A DNA stretch of 34,250 nucleotides from Maribacter sp. (lineage in GTDB: Bacteria > Bacteroidota > Bacteroidia > Flavobacteriales > Flavobacteriaceae): assembly GCA_029287355.1 (NCBI GenBank), contig JARFRH010000148.1, positions 1 to 34,250 of the forward strand. The letters are read 5' to 3'. Shown here piece by piece: positions 5,963 to 33,622 of this stretch. The notes beneath the pieces were generated by a model that did not search any database, was not told the origin of the DNA, and saw only the letters and a program-made list of their open reading frames with translations. The position numbers and the translations under genes are program-made. Position 1 is the stretch's first letter. Every line of letters starts with the position of its first letter.

Positions 5963-6036
5963 CGAAAGTAGTTTCGGACACCGTTTTGAGCAATGATAAA
6001 TATCATATGCAGCGCGAGAGGAGAGAGCTATATTTG
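5963..6036. promoter_or_regulatory. bidirectional operator with two -7 boxes (site-2 protease / pfkB)
   Basis: The palindrome TGATaaatATCA sits at 5994-6005. To the right, after 23 bases, lies TATATTTG (6029-6036), a perfect TAnnTTTG box, 16 bases before pfkB. To the left, after 23 bases on the minus strand, lies TACTTTCG (5963-5970), 10 to 16 bases before the protease start. One activator site therefore appears to serve both directions. The palindrome lies inside the extended protease reading frame, which argues against a start at 6006. Confidence 0.7.
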
Positions 6037-6051
6037 GTCTAGGATAATGCG

Positions 6052-7023
6052 ATGAAAATGGAAAACATTATAAGCCTTACGGTAAACCCGGCCATTGACA
6101 AGAGTACTTCCGTGGCGGGTATAAAACCCAATAGCAAACTAAGATGTGATACCCCTGTTTATGAGGCTGGTGGTGGTGGAATCAATATTTCCCGCGTCAT
6201 TAAGGAACTTGGAGGTACTTCGCTCTGTATGTACCTTGCTGGCTGCGCGACAGGTGTACATTTGAAACAAATGCTCACCGAGGCTGATATGCTTCAGCAG
6301 ATTATTCCCATTGCGGGCTGGACCAGGGAAAACCTCGCTGTCACCGATACCATGACCCAACAACAGTATCGATTTGGCATGCCGGGTCCGCAAATAACGG
6401 AAAAGGAATGGCAGCAAACGCTGGAACACTTGGTAGCAATTTTGGCCGAGGGCGACTATCTAGTGGCCAGTGGAAGCCTGCCTCCTGGAGTTCCAACGGA
6501 TTTTTACGCCAGGATAGCTGCAATCGCCAAAAGTAAAAATGTGAAGCTCATCTTGGATACTTCAGGGGAAGCATTGCTATATGGGGCCAAGGAAGGGGTC
6601 TATATGCTAAAACCCAACTTGGGCGAACTCAGCGCTTTGTGCGGGGTGAAGTCCGTATCGTCTATAGACCTGGAACCTTTGGCAAGGGAATTATTGGAGC
6701 AGAAGAGCTGTGAGGTCATTGTGGTCTCATTAGGAGCCAGGGGGGCTTTGTTGGTCACCAAAGATCTTACCGAATACATATCGGCGCCCACCATACACCC
6801 ACAAAGTACCATTGGTGCCGGGGACAGTATGTTGGCAGGTATGGTACTTGGTCTGGCCCAAGGAAAATCATTTAGCGAAATGGCAAAATTCGGCGTAGCC
6901 TGTGGTACTGCGGCGGCTATGAGTCCCGGAACGCAACTCTGCAAAAAGCAAGATGTGGAAGGGCTTTATAAATGGATACTATCAAATACCAATACAACTG
7001 GTAGAATTGAAATGGATACGTAA
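6052..7023 (+). CDS. pfkB: PfkB-family sugar kinase (6-phosphofructokinase 2 / 1-phosphofructokinase type)
   Basis: This 323-residue ribokinase-fold kinase phosphorylates a sugar phosphate with ATP. NPAID at 12-16 and GGGGINISR at 40-48 form the substrate side, matching Pfk-2, LacC and FruK enzymes (usually GGKGINVSR). SGSLPPG is at 140-146 and KPNLGEL at 187-193. GAGDS at 255-259 supplies the catalytic Asp 258 and anion hole. These motifs favour fructose-6-phosphate or fructose-1-phosphate over ribose. It heads a run of plus-strand genes, with DUF302 17 bases downstream. Its promoter is one of the window's repeated operator modules. In Mycobacterium tuberculosis a PfkB protein (Rv2029c) belongs to the DosR regulon, which fits the proposed stress role here. 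Confidence 0.88.
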   Translation: MKMENIISLTVNPAIDKSTSVAGIKPNSKLRCDTPVYEAGGGGINISRVIKELGGTSLCMYLAGCATGVHLKQMLTEADMLQQIIPIAGWTRENLAVTDTMTQQQYRFGMPGPQITEKEWQQTLEHLVAILAEGDYLVASGSLPPGVPTDFYARIAAIAKSKNVKLILDTSGEALLYGAKEGVYMLKPNLGELSALCGVKSVSSIDLEPLARELLEQKSCEVIVVSLGARGALLVTKDLTEYISAPTIHPQSTIGAGDSMLAGMVLGLAQGKSFSEMAKFGVACGTAAAMSPGTQLCKKQDVEGLYKWILSNTNTTGRIEMDT

Positions 7024-7040
7024 ATTTAAAAATTAGAGAG

Positions 7041-7427
7041 ATGGGATATTATTTTAACAAATCGCTCCCGAACCTTTCATTTGAGGAGGCGATCGAAAAA
7101 GTTACAGCCGCCCTAAAGCAAGAGGGCTTTGGCATTTTAACGGAAATAGACATCAAGGCAACCCTAAAAAAAAAGCTGGATGCCGACTTTCATCCCTATA
7201 AAATTTTAGGAGCCTGCAATCCTTCCTTTGCCCATAAAGCGCTAAATGCCGAGGACAAAATTGGAACCATGCTTCCCTGTAATGTCATTGTACAGGAAAA
7301 GGAGGGAATTGTTGAGGTTGCCGCAGTGAATCCTATAGCTTCAATGCAGGCTGTGGAAAATGAAGACTTGGCCGATATCGCTACATCGGTATCCGACAAA
7401 CTACAAAGGGCCGTGGAAAGTCTTTGA
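7041..7427 (+). CDS. DUF302 domain protein
   Basis: This 128-residue soluble protein has the DUF302 layout. FEEAIEKVTAALKQEGFG near 14-31 is the first helix and turn. The stretch around HPYKILGACNPSFAHKAL (51-68) is the conserved middle, and 'GTMLPCNVIVQE' near 74-85 is the last conserved strand. The family's biochemical role is unknown, though members often appear beside redox or thiol genes. It follows pfkB at 17 bases and is probably co-transcribed. The next gene has its own operator promoter, so the transcript may end or be reinforced after this gene. Confidence 0.8.
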   Translation: MGYYFNKSLPNLSFEEAIEKVTAALKQEGFGILTEIDIKATLKKKLDADFHPYKILGACNPSFAHKALNAEDKIGTMLPCNVIVQEKEGIVEVAAVNPIASMQAVENEDLADIATSVSDKLQRAVESL

Positions 7428-7496
7428 TCTTTCTGGCCGAATGTAGGGATACATACAGCGCTACTTCTAGGCAGTTGGCATTTTTCCATTTAAGAA

Positions 7497-7539
7497 TGAC
7501 AAATATCATTTTCACAGCCTCTTGGCTTCCGTAACTTTA
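7497..7539 (+). promoter_or_regulatory. operator and -7 box before the flavin-reductase operon
   Basis: The palindrome TGACaaatATCA lies at 7497-7508. After 23 bases comes TAACTTTA (7532-7539), close to TAnnTTTG. The start codon follows at 7562. The palindrome centre is 33 bases upstream of the centre of the -7 box, the same as at the other modules. The promoter should drive 7562-12424. Confidence 0.68.
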
Positions 7540-7561
7540 TGGATTACCCAAAGTTTTGTGT

Positions 7562-8173
7562 ATGGAAAAGGAATACATGACAGATTTCATTCCCCTAGCC
7601 ATGGATGCGCCTATCTGGAACCGGTTTTTCACGATTGCCCCGTTGATTGTAGTCGGTACTAAGGAGGATGATAGCTATGATTTGGCCCCAAAGCATATGG
7701 CTACGCCCATAGGGCCGTCGAATTATTTTGGTTTTGTTTGTACACCAAAGCATTCAACATATCGCAACATCACGAAAACAGGCGAGTTTGCCGTGAGTTT
7801 TCCAATGCCCGACCAAACCGTGCTGGCAGCACTTAGTGCTTCTCCACGTTGCGAGAATGGTTCAGGGGCCAAAAAAATTGTGGATGTATTACCCACCTTT
7901 AAGACCAATACCATTGATGCCCTTTTTATAAAAAATTCCTACCTGTATTTGGAATGCGAACTATTCAGGATAATGGATGGTTTTGATGGCTATAGTTTTA
8001 TCTCCGGAAAGGTTAAGGCGGCATTTGTCGATAAGGCGTATTTAAAGGTATCGGAACAAGATGAACAGCAACAGCTTCACAAACATCCATTACTAGCTTA
8101 TTTAGCACATGGACGATTCGCACAAATTTCCGAGACGTTCAACTTTCCATTTCCCAAGGACTTTAATTTTTAA
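7562..8173 (+). CDS. flavin reductase-like (split-barrel FMN-binding) protein
   Basis: This protein of about 203 residues belongs to the flavin reductase-like domain family (DIM6/NtaB type). After a short lead, LAPKHMATPIGPSNYFGFVC near 38-57 forms the FMN-binding turn. HSTYRNITKTGEFAVSFP near 61-78 is the family's second motif. The C-terminal part adds strands and ends in FPFPKDFNF. Such proteins bind FMN and reduce flavins or use them in oxidoreductase reactions. The frame can be read from a TTG at 7556, but ATG codons at 7562 and 7577 are better starts. It leads an operon with the M20 peptidase three bases downstream and has its own operator-type promoter. Confidence 0.78.
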   Translation: MEKEYMTDFIPLAMDAPIWNRFFTIAPLIVVGTKEDDSYDLAPKHMATPIGPSNYFGFVCTPKHSTYRNITKTGEFAVSFPMPDQTVLAALSASPRCENGSGAKKIVDVLPTFKTNTIDALFIKNSYLYLECELFRIMDGFDGYSFISGKVKAAFVDKAYLKVSEQDEQQQLHKHPLLAYLAHGRFAQISETFNFPFPKDFNF

Positions 8174-8176
8174 CGA

Positions 8177-9343: not shown

Positions 9344-10359
9344 ACCATCGTTATATCTTTACCTCTTTGACCCGAATTTCAGATTTATCCGAGAAGGAAT
9401 TCACACTGAAAACACTTCCAAGGAACCAATGGGAAACAGGCGATTATATCGTTTGCGAAATTGTAAACGCCGGGAGTGAAACCTTAAAATTGGAGCTGCC
9501 CAATGGGAGAATGCGCGGTGTCATTGGGGGCGAATACATCGTCGGGGCCTTAGGGGAACGTTTTGCTACTCTGGAAGCTACCGGTACCTGGAGGAACGTT
9601 GGGGAAAATTTAATGATGGCTGTTTTGACCGGTGCAGGCCTTTTGGGAAAATTGACTTCCAAATCGGTCTTCCTTCCCCCAATGATGAAAATTCTTTACT
9701 CCGGTCATGCATTCCGGAGCGATACCAAAGTGACCATGGATAGCTTTGTGGAACCAACCCCTCATATCCCGTTTGATACTCCTGTGGTTTTGTTCGCAGG
9801 TACTTCGATGTCGGCCGGTAAGACGACTTCGGCCCGTATTGTCACCAACTTGTTCAAACAGGCAGGTCATAAGGTAGTAGGTGCTAAGCTAACCGGGGCA
9901 GGAAGGCTTAAGGACATCCTGGCCATCAAGGATGTCGGGGCAGATGCGGTGATGGATTTTGTAGATGTAGGCCTTCCCTCCTCCATTTGTCCCAAGGACA
10001 CCTTCGAAATTAAATTACAGCAGCTCCTAAGTAAAATTGCCCATGAAAAAGCGGATATCGCTATTATCGAAATAGGGGCCTCCCCCTTGGAACCTTACAA
10101 TGGTGACCTGGCCATTAATGCCATACGGGAGCAAGTAAAATGTACCATTCTTAGTGCTTCAGACCCATATGCGGTATACGGCTTAATGAAGGCCTTTGAC
10201 ATTGTTCCGGATATCGTTACCGGAATTACCTCGAATACGCTGGCGGGTATTCGCATGGTGGAGCAGCTTTGCGGCGTGAAGGCATTGAATTTAATCGATG
10301 CTACTACCACCAAAAGATTAAAACAAATTCTGTCGGCTTCCACAGGATTTGCCCTTTGA
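9340..10359 (+). CDS. P-loop NTPase, DUF1611-like
   Basis: This 339-residue protein has a beta-rich N-terminal part (1-140) and a SIMIBI-type P-loop half. The Walker A-like loop is GTSMSAGKTT at 154-163. GADAVMDFVDVG near 195-206 and IIEIGASPLEPYNGD near 243-257 look like the switch and Walker B regions. The layout resembles DUF1611, which includes the D-glutamate N-acetyltransferase DgcN; MobB-like nucleotide-binding proteins are an alternative. The family call is tentative. It overlaps the M20 peptidase by four bases, which is good evidence that the two act together. The hibernation factor gene follows after a short gap. Confidence 0.6.
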   Translation: MNHRYIFTSLTRISDLSEKEFTLKTLPRNQWETGDYIVCEIVNAGSETLKLELPNGRMRGVIGGEYIVGALGERFATLEATGTWRNVGENLMMAVLTGAGLLGKLTSKSVFLPPMMKILYSGHAFRSDTKVTMDSFVEPTPHIPFDTPVVLFAGTSMSAGKTTSARIVTNLFKQAGHKVVGAKLTGAGRLKDILAIKDVGADAVMDFVDVGLPSSICPKDTFEIKLQQLLSKIAHEKADIAIIEIGASPLEPYNGDLAINAIREQVKCTILSASDPYAVYGLMKAFDIVPDIVTGITSNTLAGIRMVEQLCGVKALNLIDATTTKRLKQILSASTGFAL

Positions 10360-10396
10360 GTATAATTTGAATCATACACCATTAATCAGTACAAAA

Positions 10397-10699
10397 ATGA
10401 AAACACAAATTCAATTTATTCACACGAAAGTGAATCCAACTATCGAAGAATTCATTCAAGACAAACTAAGACAACTGTCTGAAAAATACCCTTGGCTCAT
10501 TAGGGCCGATGTGATCATTAAAGAAGAAAACGACCCGACACCAAAGGGAAAAATTAGTGAAATCCGTCTCAGTGCTCCGGGACCGCTGATCTTTGCTTCT
10601 TCAGATGAAGAATCTTTTGAGGCTTCGGTGGCAGAAACCATTCGAGACTTGGAAAAACAGTTAAAAAAGCGGAAAGGTAAAATGAACCCCCATCTTTAA
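10397..10699 (+). CDS. hpf: ribosome hibernation promoting factor (HPF/RaiA family, short form)
   Basis: This 100-residue protein has the sigma-54 modulation/S30EA fold. It shows an opening strand (MKTQIQFIHTKV), a helix (EEFIQDKLRQLSEKYP), a strand (RADVIIKEEND), the central APGPLIFASSDEESFEASV, and a basic C-terminal helix (LEKQLKKRKGK). It binds the 30S decoding region and shuts translation down when cells stop growing. It lacks the long dimerising tail, so it is a short HPF. The frame is open from 10349, but homologous starts fit the ATG at 10397. It lies three bases before the ribonucleotide reductase. A broken paralogue lies at 29075-29442. Confidence 0.85.
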   Translation: MKTQIQFIHTKVNPTIEEFIQDKLRQLSEKYPWLIRADVIIKEENDPTPKGKISEIRLSAPGPLIFASSDEESFEASVAETIRDLEKQLKKRKGKMNPHL

Positions 10700-10702
10700 A
10701 AG

Positions 10703-12424
10703 ATGATCCCGAATCTCACAGCCAACGCAGTTCAAATTCTCAGGGAACGTTACTTTCTGCGAGACTCAAAAGGTGATGTCCGTGAAAATGTTCATCAACT
10801 TTTTAGAAGAGTGGCCGAACATGTTGCCAGCTCGGAGAAAAAAGACCAGGCGCAATGGGCGGATACCTTTCACAGGGTCATGTCAGACCTTGAATTTTTG
10901 CCCAACTCCCCTACCCTGATGAACGCCGGGCTAACCAACGGACAGTTGAGTGCCTGCTTTGTGTTGCCCGTGGAGGATCGTTTGGAAGCCATTTTCACTA
11001 CACTTAAAAATGCGGCTCTGATCCATCAAAGCGGCGGGGGAACGGGATACAATTTTTCCAAATTGCGACCCAAAGACGACTTAGTAAGTACCACCGGCGG
11101 AAGATCTTCAGGTCCGATTGCCTTTATGAAAGTATATGATGCGGCTACAGAACACGTAAAACAAGGTGGCAGGCGCAGAGGTGCCAATATGGGGATACTC
11201 AATGTGAACCATCCCGATATCGAGATGTTCGTTACCTCTAAATCGGAGGGCGAAAATTTGCAAAACTTTAATATTTCGGTAGGCATTACAGACGATTTTA
11301 TGGAGGCCGTAGAAAAGGATAAAGAGTGGCAATTGGTAAATCAAAGAACGAAAAAAGTCTCGAAGACCATAAGGGCCAGAGCGCTTTTTGGTTTGATCGC
11401 GGAGCAGGCACAAAAAACCGGAGATCCCGGACTCATCTTTTTGGATACGATCAATAAAGGAAACCCCCTGCCGAAACAAGGAAGCATGCAAAGCACAAAT
11501 CCATGCGGAGAAGTTCCGTTGTTCGATTTTGAGAGCTGTAATCTGGGCTCCATCAATCTGACCAAAATGATAGCCCAGGATACGGGGAAAAAGGAAATCG
11601 ATTGGGAGAAACTCAAAGAAACCGTTACAATAGCCATTCGGTTTTTGGATAACGTCATCACTTGTAATTATTACCTACTACCCGAAATAAAGGAAAAAAC
11701 CTTGGCCAATCGAAAAATTGGATTGGGCCTTATGGGCTGGGCGGAACTGTTGTTAATGCTTGATATTCCATATGCCTCGGACGAGGCAATACTACTGGGC
11801 GAAAAACTAATGAAATTTATTCAGCAGAGGAGCTATGAAGCCTCGGGCAACTTAGCCAAGGAAAGAGGATCTTTCCCTTCTTGGGAGAAAAGTCGCTATG
11901 CACCCAACAACCCTATGCGCAATGCCACATGTAATAGTATAGCACCTACGGGCAGCATCTCGGTCATCGCCAACACCTCGTACTCCATTGAACCATTGTA
12001 TGCACTTTCCTATAATAGGGTGGGAATTTTAGACGGTAAAACACAAACGGAGCTGAATATTGTTTTTATGGAAAAAATGAAACATATGAACCTTTGGACA
12101 GAAGAAATAAAAGCAGAAGTAATTGCTACCGGAAGCATCCAGCAGGTAAAATCCATTCCTATAAACATCAAAAAACTGTTCGAGACCAGTTTGGAAATTC
12201 CGTGGAAATACCACTTGCTACATCAGCGAGCCTTTCAAAAATATACGGACAATGCTGTTTCCAAGACCGTTAACCTTTTAAAAACGGCCACGGTAAAAGA
12301 AGTGGCGGATTGCTATCTAACGGCATGGCACTATGGTTTAAAGGGCATCACGGTCTACCGAAATGGAAGTAGACAACAGCAGGTCTTGCAACACTGCAGT
12401 CTCAATATGGTGGAAAACTGTTAA
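10703..12424 (+). CDS. nrdJ: adenosylcobalamin-dependent (class II) ribonucleoside reductase
   Basis: This 573-residue enzyme reduces ribonucleotides to deoxyribonucleotides without oxygen, using coenzyme B12. Active-site residues are Cys 85 (SACFVLP), the STNPCGE motif with Asn 266, radical Cys 268 and Glu 270, and Cys 279 (FESCNLGS), which pairs with Cys 85. HQSGGGTGYNFS at 108-119 binds substrate, and TGSISVIANTSYSIEP near 415-430 is the second conserved loop. Near the C-terminus GLKGITVYRNGSR is typical of NrdJ. The tail ends with Cys 565 and Cys 573, a shortened redox pair without the usual zinc-ribbon extension. Class II enzymes support DNA synthesis or repair at low oxygen. It follows hpf at three bases. 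No B12 riboswitch was seen upstream. Confidence 0.92.
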   Translation: MIPNLTANAVQILRERYFLRDSKGDVRENVHQLFRRVAEHVASSEKKDQAQWADTFHRVMSDLEFLPNSPTLMNAGLTNGQLSACFVLPVEDRLEAIFTTLKNAALIHQSGGGTGYNFSKLRPKDDLVSTTGGRSSGPIAFMKVYDAATEHVKQGGRRRGANMGILNVNHPDIEMFVTSKSEGENLQNFNISVGITDDFMEAVEKDKEWQLVNQRTKKVSKTIRARALFGLIAEQAQKTGDPGLIFLDTINKGNPLPKQGSMQSTNPCGEVPLFDFESCNLGSINLTKMIAQDTGKKEIDWEKLKETVTIAIRFLDNVITCNYYLLPEIKEKTLANRKIGLGLMGWAELLLMLDIPYASDEAILLGEKLMKFIQQRSYEASGNLAKERGSFPSWEKSRYAPNNPMRNATCNSIAPTGSISVIANTSYSIEPLYALSYNRVGILDGKTQTELNIVFMEKMKHMNLWTEEIKAEVIATGSIQQVKSIPINIKKLFETSLEIPWKYHLLHQRAFQKYTDNAVSKTVNLLKTATVKEVADCYLTAWHYGLKGITVYRNGSRQQQVLQHCSLNMVENC

Positions 12425-12486
12425 GACCTTCGTGCAAGTAGGAAAATCCGAAACTTTCTAACATTCAATTCATAAGCCTAACCAAA

Positions 12487-12636
12487 TCATGATTGCGCTG
12501 CACCAGTTATAGTTCTTTTAAACTTAAGAATTACGGCAGCTGCCTCAAAAGTCCGATCATTATCAAAATCATATTCTCCTGCAGTGTCGCTAAAGGAATC
12601 CTTCCATCTCAACGCATTTCTACTATTTTTGAGGTA
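12487..12636 (-). pseudogene. possible remnant of an unidentified protein C-terminus
   Basis: Read on the minus strand, about 49 residues run open to a TGA at 12487-12489. They have a coding-like pattern of Asp/Phe-rich turns followed by the strand EAAAVILKFKRTI. There is no start codon in a sensible place, and an in-frame stop lies just before the stretch. I do not recognise the family. It may be the last piece of a deleted gene, or chance. Confidence 0.2.
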
Positions 12637-12648
12637 CTAATCAAAATC

Positions 12649-12680
12649 ATTTGATACAACCCGAAAGGCGGCTATCTTTC
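12649..12680 (+). promoter_or_regulatory. Bacteroidota-type promoter for the 12734 gene
   Basis: TTG at 12649-12651 is followed after 21 bases by TATCTTTC at 12673-12680. This is close to the TTG-N19..21-TAnnTTTG pattern of the flavobacterial housekeeping sigma factor. The start codon is 53 bases downstream. No TGAY-N4-RTCA palindrome is at the regulon spacing. Confidence 0.4.
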
Positions 12681-12733
12681 GTACGGAATACTCAAAGTGG
12701 TTTCCCATTCAATTTCAGATACTTGATGGTACA

Positions 12734-14608: not shown

Positions 14609-15148
14609 TCACACAACTTGAGGTTCGCTAAGCTTCAAGTGCTCTTTATCGACCATATCCGAAACCCATTTTAGAATAGGTTCGATACTCGATTTATCCA
14701 TATAATCGAATCCCTCTTCCATTCGTTTTTTGGTATCTGGATCTTTTTCGACCCGAGCAGCAAACTTCATTATTAATCGTACCGACCATGGCAATTCATC
14801 CAATATGAGTCTCCCACGTAAAGGCACATGGTACACCTGTGATAATAGAGCTTCTGAAAGGCTGTTCACCAGCCATTTTTTTAGGTCGGGATGACCCGGT
14901 TCCGTACCGGAAACCGTGAACAACAAAACAGGTTTGTTCTTAATGTTCGACCAGTTGGCCTTTAACCATTTTTGGATGGTTGGCTTCATAGCGATAATTG
15001 AACTTCCCAAAATCAGAAGATCATATTCGCTTGGGTCAGGGCGTTCCATGGCGAGATCAAAAACGGGCAAATACGTGCGCTCATTGATCCAAAACGCGTA
15101 TTTCTTGGTGCTACCGAACTTACCGCTATAAAATATAGCTGCTTTCAT
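14609..15148 (-). CDS. flavodoxin-domain protein (HemG-like)
   Basis: This 179-residue protein opens with YSGKFGSTKKYA, an FMN phosphate-binding loop of the flavodoxin type. YDLLILGSSIIAMKPT near 42-57 forms the second FMN loop. The stretch 'LLFTVSGTEPGHPDLKKW' near 75-92 is the third. Such stand-alone flavodoxins include menaquinone-dependent protoporphyrinogen oxidase HemG, but the electron partner here is unknown. A paralogue lies at 21591-22118 with the same motifs and the same ending, FDYxDxSSIEPIL. Both genes are preceded by the same type of operator-promoter module, and no haem genes are nearby. This argues for a stress-related redox role. Confidence 0.82.
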   Translation of the reverse strand: MKAAIFYSGKFGSTKKYAFWINERTYLPVFDLAMERPDPSEYDLLILGSSIIAMKPTIQKWLKANWSNIKNKPVLLFTVSGTEPGHPDLKKWLVNSLSEALLSQVYHVPLRGRLILDELPWSVRLIMKFAARVEKDPDTKKRMEEGFDYMDKSSIEPILKWVSDMVDKEHLKLSEPQVV

Positions 15149-15177: not shown

Positions 15178-15220
15178 TCAAAGTATTGAAATCCCCACCC
15201 AATTAAAATGATCTTCATCA
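15178..15220 (-). promoter_or_regulatory. operator and -7 box before the first flavodoxin
   Basis: On the minus strand the palindrome TGATgaagATCA (15209-15220) is followed after 23 bases by TACTTTGA (15178-15185). The flavodoxin start is 30 bases further. In the opposite direction the octamer at the same spacing is not promoter-like, and the plus-strand gene instead uses its own operator at 15267. Confidence 0.58.
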
Positions 15221-15266: not shown

Positions 15267-15309
15267 TGACGAATGTCATTTGATAACAGCAGGAATGGGG
15301 ATATCTTTT
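15267..15309 (+). promoter_or_regulatory. operator and -7 box before the zinc-ribbon gene
   Basis: The palindrome TGACgaatGTCA lies at 15267-15278. After 23 bases comes TATCTTTT (15302-15309). The zinc-ribbon start is at 15359. Two operators thus sit in one divergent region, one per direction, 58 bases apart. Confidence 0.65.
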
Positions 15310-15358: not shown

Positions 15359-15649
15359 ATGAAACCTATAGACGTACATGGTAATATTTGTGAAAGTTGT
15401 GGCATGCCCATGCACCATTTATCCGATTTCGGCACCAATATAGATAATACCATAAATACGGAATTCTGTCATTTTTGCTTTCTAAAAGGAAGGTTTGTCG
15501 ACCACGGAATATCCTTGGAACAGAAAATCGAAAAAAACATAGCTATGGCTCAAAAATTGGGAATGTCTAGAGAAGAAGCTACTATGAAGGCGAATAATAC
15601 ACTCCCCAAGCTTAAAAGGTGGAAGGATTTGAAGCCTGTTGAAGAATAG
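15359..15649 (+). CDS. putative zinc-ribbon protein (CESCGMPM type)
   Basis: This 96-residue protein has the four Cys of a treble-clef or ribbon: CESCGMPM near 12-19 and FCHFCFLKGRF near 36-46. A helix-rich tail carries MAQKLGMSREEATMKANNTLPKL. This matches the 'putative zinc ribbon domain' family seen as small proteins or fused to regulators; its partner is unknown. Its promoter is an operator module, so it probably responds to the same signal as the flavodoxins. The start is 50 bases past the -7 box, a longer leader than at the other modules. The next frame begins at the stop codon. Confidence 0.75.
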   Translation: MKPIDVHGNICESCGMPMHHLSDFGTNIDNTINTEFCHFCFLKGRFVDHGISLEQKIEKNIAMAQKLGMSREEATMKANNTLPKLKRWKDLKPVEE

Positions 15650-21523: not shown

Positions 21524-21566
21524 TGACGAATATCATTCATTTGCTTGGCTTTTCAATGTATTATTA
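21524..21566 (+). promoter_or_regulatory. operator and -7-like box before the second flavodoxin
   Basis: The palindrome TGACgaatATCA is at 21524-21535. After 23 bases comes TATTATTA (21559-21566), the weakest -7 match of the twelve. The start codon at 21591 lies 24 bases further on. The operator half is identical to that at 15267 except for one base. Confidence 0.55.
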
Positions 21567-21590: not shown

Positions 21591-22118
21591 ATGAGCGGAG
21601 CAATTTTTTTCTCAACCAAGCACGGTAGCACGGCCGAATATGCCAATTGGATCGGCGAAGCTTCTGGTTTGCCGGTATTTGATGTGAATGATACCAACGC
21701 TGACCCATCTAAGTACGACTTTTTGGTATTAGGCAGCGCATTGATATTCTATAAACTGACCATAAGAAGATGGGCAAAAGCGAATTTGGCGGATATAGCG
21801 CATAAGTCAAAGATTCTGTTTTCGGTTTCCGGTGCGGGAGATAGTCCTAAACTACAGAGATGGGTTGCTGCATCCTTACCCGAAAAATTACTTTCGAAAA
21901 TGGACCATGTAGCACTTCGTGGTAGAATGGATCCGAAGAAACTTAACTGGGCACTGCGGTTGATAATGAGAATTGGTGCGTTTCTAAATCCCGATCCCCG
22001 AGCCAGTAAAGAAGAACGGGTAGGGTTTGATTATGTGGATAGAAGTAGTATTGAACCAATTCTAAAAATGATTGAGCAACACCAATCGAAGTTCGCCCCA
22101 GCAGATATGCCAAATTAA
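21591..22118 (+). CDS. flavodoxin-domain protein (HemG-like), paralogue of 14609-15148
   Basis: This 175-residue protein opens with FSTKHGSTAEYA, the FMN phosphate loop. YDFLVLGSALIFYKLT near 43-58 and ILFSVSGAGDSPKLQRW near 75-91 are further flavin-side loops. It ends with FDYVDRSSIEPIL, which matches the first flavodoxin. The two differ widely elsewhere, so the duplication is old. It sits alone between a plus-strand operon and a convergent membrane-protein gene whose 3' end overlaps it by 57 bases. The operator module upstream is the reason to place it in the proposed regulon. Confidence 0.83.
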   Translation: MSGAIFFSTKHGSTAEYANWIGEASGLPVFDVNDTNADPSKYDFLVLGSALIFYKLTIRRWAKANLADIAHKSKILFSVSGAGDSPKLQRWVAASLPEKLLSKMDHVALRGRMDPKKLNWALRLIMRIGAFLNPDPRASKEERVGFDYVDRSSIEPILKMIEQHQSKFAPADMPN

Positions 22119-27515: not shown

Positions 27516-27557
27516 TTTAAGAATTTTTATTGTCATTCCCTTGAAAGGGGGAATCGC

Positions 27558-28193
27558 TTAGTTTTCCAAGGCTAATTTTCGCACATCCCAACCTTTTCCC
27601 TTGGTTTTTACCGCAACGGCTTTATCCGACAGTTTATTGACCCAAATTGAAGGAAGTTCATATCTGTTCTTTCGCATTTGAATATTTTCCCTTTCCCCGA
27701 AAAATTCCACAATTTTACCAGAACTATCCATCAGTACATCGTTAAATTTATAATCGAATACCGACATTTTGATTTCATTTTGACCCATAAGGACCTTTCG
27801 AAAGAGAACGCCAGTGGTATACCCATTTTCAAAAGACCGTACATTTAGAAATTGTGGTTCAATGACTACCACACCTGTTTTATCCATAAATCCGTAGAGT
27901 GGAATATCCCCCTCCATTTTCCATACAATGCACTTGCCTTCCTTGAACATTGGATAGCGAACTCCTTTGATATCCGACCTAGAAGTGTTTGCATCTTTGT
28001 TCCAAAGTAAATCACTCCTAAAATCGATAACCAAGGCGCCTTCCTGATTGATAAAACCCCATTGATTTCCTTGGCGAACAGCCGCCAAGCCATCACTGAA
28101 AGGAGCTATTTCGTCGATTCCTTTTAAGTCTTGCGAGAATGCCATTACCGGTAAGGCCAACACCACCATAAATACTACTATAATACGTTTCAT
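27558..28193 (-). CDS. secreted WG-repeat (KWG) protein
   Basis: This 211-residue protein has a signal peptide (MKRIIVVFMVVLALPVMAFSQ) and WG-type beta repeats. 'AAVRQGNQWGFINQEGALVI' near 37-56 is one repeat, and a second has LYGFMDKTGVVVIEPQF near 99-115 with its Trp replaced. WG-repeat proteins are common in Bacteroidota envelopes and probably mediate binding. It heads a minus-strand run of six genes (to 24061) and is preceded by an operator module. That places the SDR, GyrI-like, FMN-binding, GNAT and CPKC-protein genes possibly under the same control. Confidence 0.75.
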   Translation of the reverse strand: MKRIIVVFMVVLALPVMAFSQDLKGIDEIAPFSDGLAAVRQGNQWGFINQEGALVIDFRSDLLWNKDANTSRSDIKGVRYPMFKEGKCIVWKMEGDIPLYGFMDKTGVVVIEPQFLNVRSFENGYTTGVLFRKVLMGQNEIKMSVFDYKFNDVLMDSSGKIVEFFGERENIQMRKNRYELPSIWVNKLSDKAVAVKTKGKGWDVRKLALEN

Positions 28194-28500
28194 AAGCTGT
28201 AATTTTGAGTTTATGCTAAAGTATCGCCCCCATGCCTAATTAAATATGACGTTGGTCATGTGTGTCATGGTTCTTTGTTTTTCCAATGGGAGATTGACGG
28301 AACACCGCAAATCAAAACCAATGACATGTTTAGGTCATTTAGACCTGATTGAATCAAATTGTATCCCCCAACGGTCAAGGATCAGGCAAGTGGAAGCTGT
28401 TATCGAAAAAGTGAACAGTGAGTTGCTGAAATAAAATCCGAAGGTGGTATGGCCTGTATTTCGCTTTCGCTATTCGGAATACTGCATTCTGGCTTCAGGT
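28194..28500 (-). other. intergenic region with operator promoter, otherwise non-coding
   Basis: These 307 bases carry the minus-strand operator module for the WG-repeat gene at 28216-28258. The remaining part, up to the end of the DUF2267 gene, shows no convincing ORF; a 62-residue plus-strand frame starting at 28246 overlaps the operator and has no recognisable protein. No terminator hairpin with a T tract is evident. Confidence 0.45.
28216..28258 (-). promoter_or_regulatory. operator and -7 box before the WG-repeat operon
   Basis: Read on the minus strand, TGACcaacGTCA (28247-28258) is followed after 23 bases by TACTTTAG (28216-28223). The start codon follows at 28193. The plus-strand octamer at the same distance is not promoter-like, in keeping with the absence of a plus-strand gene. 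Confidence 0.6.
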
Positions 28501-28953
28501 TTAAAACATCAAATTGGTATAGATCATACTCTTCAAGTCTTTAGGCAGACTGCCGCGGATATCTTCCATTTCGCCTAGGGAAATATACTTCCTTAAGTAG
28601 ATAAATGTCGTATCAACATACCGTTCCGCAACCTCATCACTATATTCGAAGTCGTTGACCTCTGCAGGCCAATCGTGCGCACGAACCAAATCCAGAAATT
28701 CGGGCATGTGTTTGATCTTTGGTTTTTCTTTTTTGATATTCCAACCGTTTACATAGACTGCCTTAAGGAACATAGGCAACTGTGCAATTAACTGTAAGGA
28801 TTCTTCCGGTGGAATAATATCTCGCAGGGCGTGCATAATTGCCGTGAATATCCGACCTGCCTTATTGCGGTCATGGGGCATATTCATTTCCTTGGCATAG
28901 TCTTTCAAAAAGGTATTTCCTTCCGTTGCATATTGATTAAAATTAAGTGCCAT
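28501..28953 (-). CDS. DUF2267 family protein
   Basis: From the ATG at 28953 this is a 150-residue helical protein. FNQYATEGNTFLKDYAKEM near 4-22 and 'AGRIFTAIMHALRDIIPPEE' near 32-51 match DUF2267, as does LIAQLPMFLKAVYVNGW near 55-71. The frame is open back to 28980, but the -7 box at 28978-28985 sits there, so transcription must begin inside that extension and the later start is required. DUF2267 proteins are of unknown function and often neighbour stress genes. The upstream operator is shared with the broken hibernation-factor gene on the other strand. Confidence 0.8.
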   Translation of the reverse strand: MALNFNQYATEGNTFLKDYAKEMNMPHDRNKAGRIFTAIMHALRDIIPPEESLQLIAQLPMFLKAVYVNGWNIKKEKPKIKHMPEFLDLVRAHDWPAEVNDFEYSDEVAERYVDTTFIYLRKYISLGEMEDIRGSLPKDLKSMIYTNLMF

Positions 28954-28977
28954 GATTTCTAGTATTAAAGATTTGAC

Positions 28978-29051
28978 CAAAGTTTGGCATTCAGATATTG
29001 AAATGAAATGATTTAAGTCATTTTGGAAGAAGAATCGCTGTGATACCTTCT
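28978..29051. promoter_or_regulatory. bidirectional operator with two -7 boxes (DUF2267 / hpf pseudogene)
   Basis: The palindrome TGATttaaGTCA sits at 29009-29020. On the minus strand, after 23 bases, comes AAACTTTG (28978-28985), leading to the DUF2267 start at 28953. On the plus strand, after 23 bases, comes TACCTTCT (29044-29051), leading to the hpf pseudogene at 29075. The site repeats the two-way arrangement found at 5994. Confidence 0.58.
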
Positions 29052-29074
29052 AATAAAATGCTAAAATTTGAAAG

Positions 29075-29442
29075 ATGACCATACATATTCAATAGCTACA
29101 GATGCCTACGAGCGAATCATGGAGCACAATTGTTACGTGTAACCTTAGAAAATTAGCACACAAATTCGAGTTTCATTTCAGATGCGATGTAACATTTAAA
29201 TTGGGAACGCCAACCAGGGAAACGATACAATTTTCGAAATCGAGCCAAATGCCCCGGGGCCTAGAATATTTGCAGAATCAAATGCGGACAACTTTGAGAA
29301 GGCCGCGGCCGAAACCTTAAACAATCTGAAAAGGCAACTCCGAAAACGAAAGGAAAAATTCGGAAGACGTCAAAAAGGTATTAAAAATGAAGAAAATTGC
29401 CGTACCCGAACGATTTTTTGTGGATCTCAAAATATGCAATAG
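29075..29442 (+). pseudogene. broken ribosome hibernation factor gene (hpf pseudogene)
   Basis: Reading from the ATG at 29075 gives MTIHIQ, then a stop (TAG at 29093-29095), then a readable HPF-like stretch (LRKLAHKFEF) to about 29205. There the frame shifts by one. The rest continues with NAPGPRIFAESNADNFEKAA, matching the APGPLIFASSDEESFEAS segment of the intact hpf at 10397, and a basic helix RQLRKRKEKF. One nonsense change and one frameshift disable the gene. The natural stop is unclear, and the frame runs on to 29442. It keeps an operator-type promoter, so it was once part of the regulon. Confidence 0.72.
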
Positions 29443-29481
29443 AAGTAGTAATCATCATTGACTACGACATAGAACAGGATC

Positions 29482-29886
29482 TTATTCCTTTAACAAAAGC
29501 TGCAATTTGGCCAACAGCACCAACTCCGCCTTATTCTTTCCTGAAAAAGCGTCGGCAATGGCATTGGCAGTTTTCTTGGTTAAGGATATGATTTCCTCTG
29601 AGAAGGCATGTGGATGTTCTTGATAAAACTCCTTGAATTCCTCAAAACACTCCGCACCCGTTTTTTCATACTCTAAGAGCCAGTCGAAGACAATCTCGAT
29701 CTGGTTGGCGGCATCAGTACCATATCGATCTGTAAAATCATCTACGTATAGCCAATCTTCCTTTACGATTTCCTTTACTTTATCCCATTCCTTGACATGT
29801 ACACTGCCATCGCTAATAGCCACGGCATAGAATAACCTCCCCAGATTTTGATACAGGCCGTTCATCGTTTTCGGTGTATTTTTCAT
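29482..29886 (-). CDS. TerB-like helical protein
   Basis: This 134-residue all-helical protein has GRLFYAVAISDGSVHVKEWD near 16-35. This is the acidic 'A.aDG.....E' motif of TerB/DjlA-like domains that may bind metal. A second motif, FDWLLEYEKTGAECFEEFKE, lies near 67-86. TerB-like proteins are linked to tellurite and general stress responses, but the exact role is unclear. It lies between the hpf pseudogene and the histidine kinase, on the minus strand, with its own operator module. Confidence 0.6.
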   Translation of the reverse strand: MKNTPKTMNGLYQNLGRLFYAVAISDGSVHVKEWDKVKEIVKEDWLYVDDFTDRYGTDAANQIEIVFDWLLEYEKTGAECFEEFKEFYQEHPHAFSEEIISLTKKTANAIADAFSGKNKAELVLLAKLQLLLKE

Positions 29887-29909
29887 AATTGCGTATTACG
29901 TTGAGTGTA

Positions 29910-29952
29910 CTAAACTAAGATACCTGGCTTACGATTTCTATGATAAACATCA
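29910..29952 (-). promoter_or_regulatory. operator and -7 box before the TerB-like gene; overlaps the kinase promoter region
   Basis: On the minus strand TGATgtttATCA (29941-29952) is followed after 23 bases by TAGTTTAG (29910-29917), then the start at 29886. In the plus direction there is no -7 box at 23 bases. A perfect TATATTTG (29965-29972) for the histidine kinase lies only 12 bases away, so the same bound protein would overlap the kinase promoter. Confidence 0.58.
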
Positions 29953-29964
29953 GTTTGTATTTCA

Positions 29965-29972
29965 TATATTTG
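29965..29972 (+). promoter_or_regulatory. likely -7 box of the histidine kinase gene
   Basis: TATATTTG is a perfect TAnnTTTG box five bases before the kinase ATG at 29977, implying an almost leaderless transcript. No TTG lies 19-21 bases upstream; that space is occupied by the operator palindrome at 29941-29952. Confidence 0.4.
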
Positions 29973-29976
29973 ATTC

Positions 29977-31494
29977 ATGCGCGTTTTTCAAAAGAACAGT
30001 AATATTTTCAATCTGCTTTCAGAGGGGGTTTCCGAAGGGATTATTGTGGTTAATTCAGAGCAACTCATTGTTGCCACTAATTCTTCTGCAGAAGAAATGT
30101 TCGGTTATGAAAAGGATGAACTTGTCGGAAAAAACCTCGACACGATTATTCCAAAGAGATACCATCAAGCACACCATTCACACGTAAAAAACTTTATTTC
30201 AAGAAGTGAAAAGCGACAGATGGCCAAAGGGCTTGACCTTTCAGGTGTAGCTAAAGATGGAAAGGAATTTCCTGTTGAGGCGGGCTTAAATCCATTTAAG
30301 CTTTATGGGAACACATTTGTTATGGCCTTGGTCATAGATATTAGCGAACGAAAAGCAAGGGAAGAGGAACTCAGTCATTGGGCCAAGATTTTTGACGAAT
30401 CCCTGAACGAGATATTCGTTTTTGACAGGCACTCCTTAAAATTTATTAACGCAAATCAGGGCGCACAAGATAATATTGGCTACACTTTGGATGAGTTGCT
30501 GCGACTAACCCCTATAGATATCAAACCGGATATAGATGAAATAAGGTTTCGGAAACTTATTTCACCCCTGCTTAAAAAAACGAAAAAGAAAATTCAATTT
30601 GAAACTATACATCAGCGTAAAGATGGTAGCAGATATCCAGTTGAAGTACATTTACAACCCTCGAACTTTGGTCATCAGGAGGTATTTATTGCTATAATTC
30701 TAGACATAACCGAACGACACGATTATACCGAAAAACTCGAAAGAACCGTAAGGAAACGTACTGAGCAGCTTACGCAAGCTTTGGCCAAGGAGAAAGAGCT
30801 GAGCGAACTAAAAACGCGATTTTTATCCTTGGTGTCCCACGAATTCAAAACTCCCCTTAGTAGTATTTTGACTTCCATTACCTTACTGGGTAAATACACC
30901 CAGACCGAACAACAGGAAAAACGAGACAAACATGTGACCACAATACGTAACAAAGTAAAATATCTGGATACTATTCTGAATGACTTTCTTTCTGTGGAAC
31001 GTTTGGAGTCTGGCAAGGTCAATTATAAAGTAGAGTGCTTTCCCTTGAGCAAAGTAATCAACGAGGTAGTCTATGATTCGAACATGCTGCTCAAAGCGGG
31101 ACAAAAAATACAATATCCCGAGAATATTGATGATTTGATTATCACATTCGATGAAAAAATCCTTCAGCTCGCTTTATCCAATTTGGTACATAATGCTATC
31201 AAATATTCCCCCGAAAATTCGATCATTGATTTGCAAGTGGAAAATAAAGAGGATGCGCTCATTTTAAAAGTAATCGATGAAGGTATAGGTATTCCAGAGG
31301 CGGAACAGAAACACATTTTTAACCGTTATTATAGAGCTGTAAATGCTTTACTAATACAAGGTACCGGCATTGGCCTGAACACTGCCAAACAACATCTGGA
31401 GAATCTAGGGGCGACCTTGGAATTTGATAGCAAAGAGAACAATGGATCGACATTTATCGTATGCATCTGCAAAGAACCTACTACCAGCTATTAA
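29977..31494 (+). CDS. two-PAS sensor histidine kinase, no membrane segment
   Basis: This 505-residue cytoplasmic kinase has PAS1 (about 8-125), PAS2 (about 134-248), a short coiled linker, HisKA with the phospho-accepting His 288 (SHEFKTPL), and HATPase motifs. The motifs are Asn 406 (N box), DEGIG at 434-438 (G1) and GTGIGL at 462-467 (G2). PAS1 resembles the FixL haem PAS: IIPKRYHQAHHSHVKNF places His 66 where FixL has its proximal haem His, though the distal Arg is a Leu. It could therefore sense oxygen, NO or redox state. The response regulator gene follows 86 bases later. Ligand binding is inferred only. Confidence 0.9.
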   Translation: MRVFQKNSNIFNLLSEGVSEGIIVVNSEQLIVATNSSAEEMFGYEKDELVGKNLDTIIPKRYHQAHHSHVKNFISRSEKRQMAKGLDLSGVAKDGKEFPVEAGLNPFKLYGNTFVMALVIDISERKAREEELSHWAKIFDESLNEIFVFDRHSLKFINANQGAQDNIGYTLDELLRLTPIDIKPDIDEIRFRKLISPLLKKTKKKIQFETIHQRKDGSRYPVEVHLQPSNFGHQEVFIAIILDITERHDYTEKLERTVRKRTEQLTQALAKEKELSELKTRFLSLVSHEFKTPLSSILTSITLLGKYTQTEQQEKRDKHVTTIRNKVKYLDTILNDFLSVERLESGKVNYKVECFPLSKVINEVVYDSNMLLKAGQKIQYPENIDDLIITFDEKILQLALSNLVHNAIKYSPENSIIDLQVENKEDALILKVIDEGIGIPEAEQKHIFNRYYRAVNALLIQGTGIGLNTAKQHLENLGATLEFDSKENNGSTFIVCICKEPTTSY

Positions 31495-31580
31495 AAAATG
31501 ATCTATGAAAATATTTGAAGCCTGCCCAAATAGTAGTTGCAAATTACACCTGATCATTAAAAACGGATAAAAATAAGCAG

Positions 31581-32630
31581 ATGAAAACAATTTTACTCAT
31601 TGAGGATGATAGGGCCCTTCGTGAAAACACCGAAGAGCTTCTAGAGCTTTCAGGTTATTCGGTAATAACAGCGCCTAATGGAAAAGTAGGTATTAAGGTG
31701 GCCAAAGAAAATCTACCCGATATCATTATCTGCGATATCATGATGCCGATGATTGATGGCTATGGAGTTTTAGCAGCTCTTTCTGCTGAAGAGACCACCA
31801 AACACATTCCCTTTATCTTCCTTTCCGCTAAAACGGAGCATAAGGAAATCCGAAAGGGGATGGATTTGGGCGCGGACGATTATTTGACCAAACCCTTTGA
31901 GGAAGAAGACCTTTTAAGCGCTGTTGAGAGTAGACTCGCCAAAGCACAAATTCTTGCACGAGTCCTCAATGAAAAAAAGGAAGCGCTCCCTTCAGAGGCC
32001 GAAATGCGCACCTTACATGAACTGAAGAATTTTTTTGACGATAATGGGGAGCAGGTCGATTTCAACCAAGGTGAAACCGTCTACATCGAAGGTTCGCGTT
32101 CCAATAAAATCTATTTAATTCTAAAAGGGGTCGTCAAATGCCATAATATGGACGAGGATGGAAAAGAATTGATTACCTCTTTGTATCGCGCAGATGATTT
32201 TTTGGGCTTTACTTCGTTCATGAACAACATACCATACCAAGAATCAGCCACGGCAATAGAAAATGTTCGGCTTGCAGGAATATCAAAGGAAAATCTAATG
32301 TCCATTTTGGAAAAGAACCATACGATTTCATTGGAACTGATGGAACTATTGACAAACGATATTACCGAAATAAAAGCACAATTGCTGCAGATGGCCTATA
32401 GTTCAGTGCGTAAGAAGACAGCCCAGACACTGCTACAGTTTGCCAGAATCATGGACACAAAGACCGAAGAACCCATCAAAATATCTCGAAACGATCTCGC
32501 TAGTGTCGCCGGTATCGCTACTGAAAGTTTAATTCGTACGTTGTCAGGATTCAGAAAAGAGGGACTTATCTCCATTGAGGGTCGGAATATTAGAATAATG
32601 GAGTTGAAGGCACTACAGTATGTGAGTTAA
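31581..32630 (+). CDS. response regulator: receiver domain fused to CRP/FNR-type DNA-binding module
   Basis: This 349-residue protein has a CheY-like receiver (1-120: acidic pair Asp 9-Asp 10, phospho-Asp 52, Lys 104). A cyclic-nucleotide-fold domain (about 145-255) and a Crp-type winged helix (about 275-345) follow. In the recognition helix, IATESLIRTLSGF, Glu 315 and Arg 319 align with the Glu and Arg that contact G and C of TGA half-sites in CRP and FNR. In the nucleotide pocket the Glu and Arg that bind cAMP are replaced (FLGFTSF and YQESATA), and no FeS cysteine set is present. Activity is therefore probably set by phosphorylation from the adjacent kinase. It is the best in-window candidate for the TGAY-N4-RTCA sites. 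Confidence 0.9.
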   Translation: MKTILLIEDDRALRENTEELLELSGYSVITAPNGKVGIKVAKENLPDIIICDIMMPMIDGYGVLAALSAEETTKHIPFIFLSAKTEHKEIRKGMDLGADDYLTKPFEEEDLLSAVESRLAKAQILARVLNEKKEALPSEAEMRTLHELKNFFDDNGEQVDFNQGETVYIEGSRSNKIYLILKGVVKCHNMDEDGKELITSLYRADDFLGFTSFMNNIPYQESATAIENVRLAGISKENLMSILEKNHTISLELMELLTNDITEIKAQLLQMAYSSVRKKTAQTLLQFARIMDTKTEEPIKISRNDLASVAGIATESLIRTLSGFRKEGLISIEGRNIRIMELKALQYVS

Positions 32631-32652
32631 GGATTTGGTTTTTTACTTAAGC

Positions 32653-32695
32653 TGATTAATATCATAAATTACAATCGGTCGCATGACTATTTTTG
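32653..32695 (+). promoter_or_regulatory. operator and -7 box before the first universal stress gene
   Basis: The palindrome TGATtaatATCA (32653-32664) is followed after 23 bases by TATTTTTG (32688-32695), a perfect TAnnTTTG box. The start codon is 18 bases downstream at 32713. This is the best-matched of the modules. Confidence 0.72.
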
Positions 32696-32712
32696 TTGAC
32701 CAAGCCATTTGA

Positions 32713-33549
32713 ATGAACCATATTTTAATCCCCACAGATTTTTCCGGTAATTCTTGGAACGCTTTAGAATATGCCGTACGGTTCTATAAAAACGACCCTT
32801 GCAACTTCTACATTTTGCATATTGGCGATTTAAGGGAATCATCTGTTGAAAGCAATTCCTTTGCTCTTCCCATAGAAAAGATCAGTCCTTCCATAAAAAA
32901 TAAGTTGAACTTATTTTTTGAAGGTATATCGCTTTTACCCGGTAACCAAAAACACCATTTTATTGCACTTCAAGAATACGGAAGTTTTATCGATATTATG
33001 CGTAAAACGGTTCAAGACAAAAAAATAGACCTTATCGTTATGGGCACCAAAGGAGCATCAGGTATAAAGGCCTCAGTGGTTGGCAGCAACACAGGGGATG
33101 TCATTACCAAAGTACCCTGTAATGTATTGGTAATTCCAGAGAATGCCCCAATAAAAATGGCCAAGAAAATCGCCTTCCCTTCGGATTACAACCTTTTCTA
33201 CACCCACCCCATTCTAGAGGTGCTGTCTAAAGTAATGCGAACTTCAAAAGCCAGACTACTAGTTTTGAATGTAACACCGGATTCCTTCAGCCTTACAAAA
33301 TCGCAGAAAAAAAATAAGGCGTATTTACAAGATCATTTGGCGGAAACTTTTCCTAAACTATGTAGTTATCATCACATAGCAGGTAAAAATATCAAGCCTG
33401 CCATCCTGAATTTTGTGACGGACAACGAAGTTGATATGGTAACGATGGTGGCCAAAAACCTGAATTTTTTGCAGCAACTTTTGTTCGACACCGCAATTGA
33501 AAAGTTAAGTTTTCATATGACCGTTCCTCTTTTGGTACTCCACGAGTAG
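32713..33549 (+). CDS. universal stress protein (tandem UspA domains)
   Basis: This 278-residue protein contains two Usp domains. The first starts MNHILIPTDFSGNS and ends with the ATP-binding motif G-x2-G-x9-G-S (GTKGASGIK...VVGSN near 114-129). The second, from about 150 (KKIAFPSDYN), lacks a clear ATP motif. Such proteins are induced in growth arrest, hypoxia and starvation and bind ATP or other ligands. It lies 82 bases after the regulator gene, has its own operator module, and is followed by a second Usp gene with a separate module. Confidence 0.9.
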   Translation: MNHILIPTDFSGNSWNALEYAVRFYKNDPCNFYILHIGDLRESSVESNSFALPIEKISPSIKNKLNLFFEGISLLPGNQKHHFIALQEYGSFIDIMRKTVQDKKIDLIVMGTKGASGIKASVVGSNTGDVITKVPCNVLVIPENAPIKMAKKIAFPSDYNLFYTHPILEVLSKVMRTSKARLLVLNVTPDSFSLTKSQKKNKAYLQDHLAETFPKLCSYHHIAGKNIKPAILNFVTDNEVDMVTMVAKNLNFLQQLLFDTAIEKLSFHMTVPLLVLHE

Positions 33550-33579
33550 GATGCAGTATATCTGGCGGCTTCATTGAAC

Positions 33580-33622
33580 TGACCAATATCATTGATTTTT
33601 GAACCTCTCGCGTCTATTTTTA
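33580..33622 (+). promoter_or_regulatory. operator and -7 box before the second universal stress gene
   Basis: The palindrome TGACcaatATCA (33580-33591) is followed after 23 bases by TATTTTTA (33615-33622), then a ribosome site aaagga and the ATG at 33646. Each of the two adjacent Usp genes thus has its own copy of the module. Confidence 0.7.

Follow-up and report, generated by a model that had tools for sequence, protein, structure and literature searches.

The 34,250-nucleotide (nt) stretch of Maribacter sp. DNA studied here (JARFRH010000148.1; the window) raises the question of whether a short palindrome that recurs in its intergenic DNA, followed at a fixed distance by a promoter-like octamer, is the operator of a common regulon, and which protein would act on it. 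The window encodes a candidate, a response regulator with a CRP/FNR-type output domain (the receiver-CRP fusion), and a sensor histidine kinase. Taken as a whole, the data are probably best explained by a survival regulon that the fusion would drive from a class II position on the operator MTGAY-N4-RTCAT, with a stand-alone FNR-like protein sharing that operator. We defined the operator pattern as TGAYNNNNRTCA, the strict composite as TGAYNNNNRTCA-N23-TAnnTT and the gap as the number of bases from the palindrome end to the box start. The ten TGAY-N4-RTCA palindromes reported by an initial annotation were all present, compared with 2.24 ± 1.47 expected, and none of 100 shuffles reached ten. Each of the twelve octamers it had listed starts exactly 23 bases past its palindrome, with the letters as given. 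Ten of the twelve match TAnnTT (10 composites compared with 0.04 expected from shuffles), and every other gap from 0 to 59 had at most one TAnnTT. The palindromes, the boxes and their spacing are confirmed, and they are as well established as sequence evidence by itself permits.

The pairing extended far beyond the window. A scan of the whole 4.23-Mb genome (G000), the check that the initial annotation had named, returned 111 composites compared with 4 for the reversed control. For relatives we used the best 80 of 235 loci matching the receiver-CRP protein (the named loci; 1.0 Mb, from Maribacter, Arenibacter, Flagellimonas, Aquimarina, Pricia and other Flavobacteriaceae), which were picked by gene and not by motif and are mutually related, so that their counts are not independent events. 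These loci held 417 palindromes compared with 44 to 99 for eight altered patterns, and TAnnTT stood at gap 23 in 402/834 palindrome directions, whereas the neighbouring gaps 22 and 24 had 13 and 22. The highest count at any other gap through 60 was 51, at gap 0; we rejected this peak as a separate signal because 49 of those 51 palindromes also bear a gap-23 box. TAnnTTTG also peaked at gaps 11, 12 and 24 (44 in total), and 42 of these precede the kinase gene. At least one site was present in 80/80 named loci and at least three in 62/80 (each stretch reaching at most 6 kb to either side of the fusion gene). Five of the 402 gap-23 sites fell inside open reading frames (ORFs) of at least 150 amino acids (aa), though such ORFs cover 81% of the bases. 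The proposal of a regulon that spans the genome and keeps a fixed operator-promoter geometry is thus borne out.

We refined the consensus from 76 sites of this genome, namely those of the window and of 20 fetched stretches chosen for holding sites. The operator reads MTGAY-N4-RTCAT and the box TAnTTTTR; the base following RTCA was T in 97% of these sites and the outer base was A or C in 98%. The accessible part of a Flavobacterium psychrophilum start-site map places the TAnnTTTG box at -12 to -5 and gives a median 5' untranslated region (UTR) of 24 nt (PMC9723704). Combined with a gap of 23, this box position centres the palindrome at -41.5. The class II CRP/FNR position, which the initial annotation had put near -40, is therefore well supported, with start sites taken from F. 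psychrophilum. The genome has both the TGA-N6-TCA dyad and the encoded regulator with a CRP-type helix-turn-helix that belong to class II activation. Between operator and box, the sites of this genome showed no TTG that recurred consistently at -33. Among the 68 sites with an ORF, the start codon lay a median of 33.5 nt past the box start, and in 58 cases 15 to 70 nt past it, which predicts a 5' UTR of about 21 nt. The other 8/76 sites lacked an ORF of 60 aa within 300 nt.

Conservation of the fusion points to a phosphorylation-controlled DNA-binding protein. Its gene begins 86 nt past the kinase gene. Across 81 fusions, Asp52, Lys104 and the recognition-helix residues Glu315 (E315), Ile318 (I318) and Arg319 (R319) were invariant. 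The kinase gene lay immediately upstream in 77/81 and overlapped in 3 more; at L151, among the 81 loci examined, no kinase was seen near the fusion. The protein thus has the phosphoacceptor Asp, the Lys and the partner kinase of a DNA-binding response regulator. In cAMP-CRP, an Arg in the cyclic-nucleotide pocket contacts the phosphate. The pocket of the fusion, judged by eye, instead has the consensus PYQESATA (Glu221 in 81/81, Gln220 in 67/81), and cAMP-CRP was set aside as a sole explanation. The fusion also lacks an FNR-type N-terminal cysteine cluster; a receiver domain precedes its CRP fold. The main regulator of the operator is most likely this fusion encoded in the window, switched by phosphorylation. 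G000 carries two more receiver-CRP paralogues (C128:5569-6612 and C231:2136-3191), which are 54% and 42% identical to the window's protein and have operator sites within about 1.1 kb.

The operator is related to known ones but distinct from them. The accessible part of an earlier survey gives TTGATnnnnATCAA for FNR/DNR, TTGACnnnnGTCAA for HcpR and GTAACnnnnGTTAC for HcpR2 of Bacteroides and others (PMC1274295). All are CRP/FNR-superfamily dyads with the same overall spacing as the operator described here, whose outer base is A or C rather than T and whose proposed switch is a receiver domain. The operator accordingly does not match the FNR site TTGAT-N4-ATCAA. The initial annotation had called the regulon unrecognised, and searches of an open-access library, which does not cover most subscription journals or any preprints, turned up no paper describing the operator, the regulon or the fusion regulator.

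The sensor domain of the kinase suggests what it may respond to. Compared with solved structures, its first PAS domain (PAS1) matched DosP (9e-14) and FixL (4e-13) best; 13 of the 17 matches, topping the list, were DosP or FixL, and the remainder were one other kinase and three blue-light LOV proteins. The second PAS domain, used as a control, matched neither, its sole match being another sensor at 7e-5. His66 of PAS1 aligns with the His of DosP that we take to be the heme ligand, and it is conserved in 77/77 kinases. This likeness to the DosP/FixL heme PAS domains makes low oxygen, or a related redox or gas signal, the likely input, and would fit a kinase that senses oxygen or gas. The partner of FixL is a FixJ-type regulator, whereas the partner here is of the CRP type.

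The kinase gene and the TerB-like gene are divergent and have a single operator between them, with a gap of 23 on the TerB-like side and another arrangement on the kinase side. A palindrome followed 5 to 34 bases on by a TAnnTT box and an in-frame ATG was found at 63/77 kinase loci, one box being taken per locus (TAnnTTTG preferred, then the one nearest to the ATG). The gaps were 9 to 12 at 38 loci, 24 or 25 at 23, 14 at one and 31 at one. Without the choice of a single box there were 74 kinase-side boxes, none at gap 23; a looser scan returned one gap-23 site ahead of a kinase-like ORF. The ATG lay 11 to 13 nt past the box start at 62/63 loci, and exactly 12 nt at 47. A scan that ignored the palindrome placed TAnnTTTG exactly 12 nt before the first kinase ATG in 43/77, and no other distance between 8 and 60 nt occurred more than twice. 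This distance predicts a leaderless kinase mRNA, compared with the leaders of about 21 nt predicted for the targets. With gaps of 9 to 12 the operator centre would fall between -27.5 and -30.5, covering the -33 region, a position from which bound proteins of the CRP type are expected to repress; with gaps of 24 or 25 it would fall at -42.5 to -43.5, 1 to 2 bp off the class II position. Autorepression of the kinase promoter, or no effect of the operator there, would fit this placement. The TerB label is weak, with a Pfam match in 16/37 members and none for the window's own protein, and the family has 14 invariant residues; compared with solved structures, the TerB-like protein gave chance-level matches only.

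The genes behind the sites include stress and survival functions. Across the window and the 20 site-holding stretches of G000, universal stress proteins (Usp) account for 12 of the 68 genes. The others include PfkB, M50-CBS, Hsp20, glycogen synthase and phosphorylase, an acetyl-CoA-synthetase-like AMP-binding enzyme, baeRF, PCMT, MscS, MlaE, thioredoxin, peroxiredoxin, pyridoxamine-oxidase-like and YgaP-like proteins, ccoNO and the FNR-like gene itself; BON, PPDK, phosphoenolpyruvate (PEP) synthase and HemN were assigned by reading the sequences, with no library match. The 402 sites of the named loci precede genes for Usp (195), TerB-like (71), HPF (21), WG-repeat (21), thioredoxin (14) and M50-CBS (13) proteins; 42 have no assigned gene and the rest fall to others in small numbers. 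Usp domain matches numbered 47 in G000, the most of 50 genomes of the family, and 5 in the same-genus genome G286. Over the 50 genomes, Usp count and motif excess correlated (Spearman 0.68, kinship ignored). A family of 85-89 aa proteins was also seen behind sites in G000 (L160 3585, L159 11405 and L177 506, all on the minus strand), with copies behind sites in G102, G167 and G087.

This gene set recalls known low-oxygen programmes. The DosR regulon holds NrdZ, a Rip3-like M50-CBS protein and an HPF-like protein, and the output domain of DosR is of the LuxR/NarL type; the regulator here has a CRP/FNR output, and the operator and the phylum also differ. As far as genes alone can tell, a DosR-like set of Usp, Hsp20 and PfkB is present. 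According to the accessible parts of two papers, DosR/DevR of mycobacteria and OsdR-OsdK of Streptomyces likewise place Usp, heat-shock protein and redox proteins under two-component control, and the DosR regulon has 10 Usp among 48 genes, alpha-crystallin, phosphofructokinase and Usp genes near the regulator (PMC5069765, PMC6127331). The same sources give PPDK as a predicted OsdR target and describe the lxa locus of Burkholderia cenocepacia, a low-oxygen cluster of the same gene kinds with six Usp, heat-shock and BON proteins, cytochrome c, a flavin/nitro reduction protein and phosphofructokinase (PMC5069765/PMC6127331). In B. cenocepacia, survival under anoxia depends on stand-alone Anr-type regulators, and the accessible part of that report mentions no receiver-CRP fusion (PMC9104464).

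We propose that MTGAY-N4-RTCAT serves as the operator of CRP/FNR-family activators at ordinary sigma-A promoters (-7 box TAnnTTTG), centred at -41.5, with the receiver-CRP fusion of the window as the main activator. The switch would be phosphorylation of Asp52 by the kinase encoded upstream, not cAMP or an iron-sulphur cluster, and the likely input would be low oxygen or a related redox or gas signal received through PAS1. Bound at the class II position, the regulator would turn on Usp, Hsp20, the ribosome hibernation factor, PfkB, enzymes of PEP synthesis and glycogen, and redox proteins. A stand-alone FNR-like protein would use the same half-sites, perhaps favouring an A/T core, with overlap on cbb3 oxidase and HemN. 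The operator shared by the kinase and its neighbour would act from -41.5 on the neighbour and mostly from -27.5 to -30.5 or -42.5 to -43.5 on the kinase side. The sequence data show the operator, its spacing, the gene content, the co-occurrence and the conservation, and from these we infer the binding protein, phosphorylation, the oxygen signal, activation and autorepression. Most likely the sensor-regulator pair switches on a large survival programme through about 100 marked promoters. We suggest more tentatively, at somewhat less than even chance, that in marine Flavobacteriaceae a phosphorylation-gated CRP/FNR regulator and a DosP/FixL-like kinase independently built a DosR-like regulon of about 100 promoters in which the same operator, at about -30 of the leaderless promoter of the sensor gene, limits the supply of the sensor; position alone would then set whether the one operator activates or represses. 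Such a system would offer a candidate activation rule for flavobacterial TAnnTTTG promoters that is precise to a single base, together with a named candidate regulator and its kinase. Its target list resembles the mycobacterial and Burkholderia dormancy programmes, although a protein of another kind would run it, which would make it a marine model for the convergent assembly of survival regulons and a testable case of one operator at two positions.

One set of 296 genomes drawn from the order served to compare the distribution of sites and regulators: the motif was counted, fusion matches were taken at E up to 1e-40 and FNR-like matches at E up to 1e-30. Counts are given as motif versus reversed-pattern control, and the 50 family genomes are a subset. 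FNR-like matches were found in 133/296 genomes and fusion matches in 35/296. In the family, 17 genomes with a close fusion match (G000 included) had 647 versus 60 sites (median excess 7.6 per Mb), and 10 with only a distant one had 252 versus 43 (3.6 per Mb). A close fusion versus none gave p = 1e-5 with G000 left out, a value made optimistic by the relatedness of the genomes. The two genomes of the same genus differed sharply: G000, with three fusions, had 111 versus 4, and G286, with no fusion match and an FNR-like protein 81% identical to that of G000, had 9 versus 7. Five genomes with a close fusion and no FNR-like match had 106 versus 12. In the stretches seen, two of these (G102 and G167) had sites before Usp, YtxH, MlaE, PNPOx-like and DUF2267 genes and small unknown families as in G000, most sites preceding G000-type families. 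G241, also without an FNR-like match, had two stretches in which sites precede genes for HemN and cytochrome c and two unassigned genes; no site was found in its stretch around the fusion gene.

A further draw of 296 genomes of the phylum (fusion at E up to 1e-50) had the fusion in 43, of which 26 lie outside the order. The kinase adjoined the fusion in 18 of 20 stretches from 19 of these 26 genomes, which indicates that the two-component pair is widespread in the class. Palindromes numbered 84 there, whereas seven altered patterns gave 9 to 55. The box stood at gap 23 in 12/168 directions, and other gaps up to 45 had at most 3, apart from gap 45 itself with 16. This gap-45 TAnnTT peak (L198-L217) spans 12 loci and may, at a guess, reflect conserved coding sequence. 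The large stress regulon seems to have been elaborated in some members of the Flavobacteriaceae.

Several results weigh against control by the fusion and against the proposed oxygen input. The 23 family genomes with neither kind of fusion still had 351 versus 88 sites (median excess 2.7 per Mb). Distant-only versus none gave a non-significant p = 0.08, a value that is likewise optimistic. Sites are plentiful in G256 (27/4) and G143 (32/2), which have no fusion match, and few in G221 (8/4), which has a distant one. In the FNR-only G286, two sites were seen in L185 and one of them precedes a Usp gene, so that Usp genes would not be under the fusion alone. Usp occurred in 2/20 of the out-of-order regions, so the pair persists without Usp islands, and 14/77 kinase loci had no palindrome plus box. 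On the sensor side, PAS1 also matches the three LOV proteins, more weakly, and PAS similarity with a conserved His is no proof of heme. We read the co-occurrence pattern as that of an operator shared by the fusion and the FNR-like protein.

Sharing of the operator could go further, and a possible though less probable alternative is that no one protein is the main regulator and that several receiver-CRP paralogues form a network on it together with the FNR-like protein. Nine cyclic-nucleotide-binding matches are present in G000, of which three are receiver-CRP fusions and one is the FNR-like protein; all four have recognition helices of the E...I-R type, and G000, alone among the 50 family genomes in having three fusion matches, also has the most sites. 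Among the five site-richest relatives, however, G079, G109 and G087 have a single fusion match and G276 and G138 two.

It is rather unlikely that the stand-alone FNR-like protein is itself the main activator, with receiver-CRP proteins acting on few sites or as modulators. This protein (contig C9 of G000) has two N-terminal Cys, and its gene is flanked by one site before and one after. These flanking sites, its wider distribution, with most matches in genomes without a fusion, the excess of sites in fusion-less family genomes, and the sites at ccoNO, hemN and the Usp gene of G286 would agree with such a role. Cores made up of A/T only were found in 77/120 FNR-only compared with 34/106 fusion-only sites (p = 1.5e-6, composition uncorrected), a trend opposed by the fusion-only G241 (14/22). 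A stronger core difference (38/54 versus 9/55; 4/7 and 2/5 genomes) was discarded, being weak once all rows were counted and with G241 as an exception; this weakening also favours the FNR-like protein. Against it, G286 has few sites despite its closely similar FNR-like protein, and the five genomes without an FNR-like match are enriched. FNR as the sole explanation was set aside on the outer base A/C and the enrichment in fusion-only genomes. The FNR-like protein probably shares the operator with the fusion. The interpretation of the initial annotation thus stands as to the genome-wide regulon, the fixed geometry and the class II position, but its single activator does not: the operator seems to serve at least two proteins of the CRP/FNR family, G000 carries three receiver-CRP paralogues, and the kinase-facing operator lacks the activating spacing.

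The very rigid spacing could also suit an upstream element of an alternative sigma factor, but this is highly improbable, as the downstream box is the sigma-A TAnnTTTG in the accessible part of the start-site map (PMC9723704), the element upstream of it forms a dyad whose core is loose and whose half-sites are spaced as in CRP/FNR sites, boxes flank both sides in 32/427 palindromes, and other spacings occur before the kinase. Chance or compositional artefact is already refuted, and practically negligible, given the counts in the genome, the named loci and the window and the scarcity of sites in long ORFs.

The sites and genes of the window are listed in Table 1. From their spacing, the genes behind the site at 7497 would form one operon.

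Table 1. Operator sites, boxes and associated genes of the window
Feature	Coordinates	Strand	Details
Operator	5994..6005	both	Boxes 6029-6036 (+) for PfkB (6052) and 5963-5970 (-) for M50-CBS protease (likely start 5952)
Operator	7497..7508	+	Box 7532-7539, upstream of flavin-reductase-like gene
Presumed operon behind 7497		+	Flavin-reductase-like, then closely M20 peptidase, 9340 ORF, HPF and NrdJ genes
Operator	15209..15220	-	Box 15178-15185, upstream of Flavodoxin_5 gene 14609-15148
Operator	15267..15278	+	Box 15302-15309, upstream of zinc-ribbon gene 15359-15649
Operator	21524..21535	+	Imperfect box TATTATTA 21559-21566 (no TAnnTT match), upstream of Flavodoxin_5 gene 21591-22118
Operator	28247..28258	-	Box 28216-28223, upstream of WG-repeat gene 27558-28193
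Operator	29009..29020	both	AAACTTTG 28978-28985 (-), to DUF2267 gene 28501-28980; TACCTTCT 29044-29051 (+)
Operator	29941..29952	both	Common to divergent TerB-like gene (box 29910-29917, gap 23) and kinase gene (gap 12)
Kinase -7 box TATATTTG	29965..29972	+	12 nt before ATG; operator centre about -30.5; predicted leaderless mRNA
Operator	32653..32664	+	Box 32688-32695, upstream of Usp 32713
Operator	33580..33591	+	Box 33615-33622, upstream of Usp 33646
Sensor histidine kinase	29977..31494	+	PAS (DosP/FixL-like), PAS, HisKA, HATPase_c
Response regulator with CRP/FNR output	31581..32630	+	Receiver, cyclic-nucleotide-binding fold, HTH_Crp_2; proposed activator
TerB-like small protein	29482..29886	-	Divergent from kinase
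PfkB-type hexose kinase	6052..7023	+	Proposed target
S30AE/HPF-type ribosome hibernation factor	10349..10699	+	Presumed operon behind 7497
B12-dependent ribonucleotide reductase NrdJ	10703..12424	+	Presumed operon behind 7497
Universal stress protein	32713..33549	+	Proposed target
Universal stress protein	33646..34248	+	Proposed target; contig end cuts gene

Three details of the initial annotation needed amendment. Its statement that boxes are absent where there is no gene had wrongly counted the plus direction of 29941 as gene-less; the kinase gene starts there, with its box at gap 12, an arrangement found again in relatives. Its statement that gene bodies are free of strict sites requires the M50 gene to start at 5952 and not at its first ATG, 6006, and a 62-aa ORF at 28246-28434 to be disregarded. 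Both directions of 29009 had been taken as gene-directed, which is right for the minus direction, facing the DUF2267 gene; the plus direction faces only a doubtful 72-aa ORF. This good gap-23 box without a convincing gene may belong to a small RNA or be a chance match.

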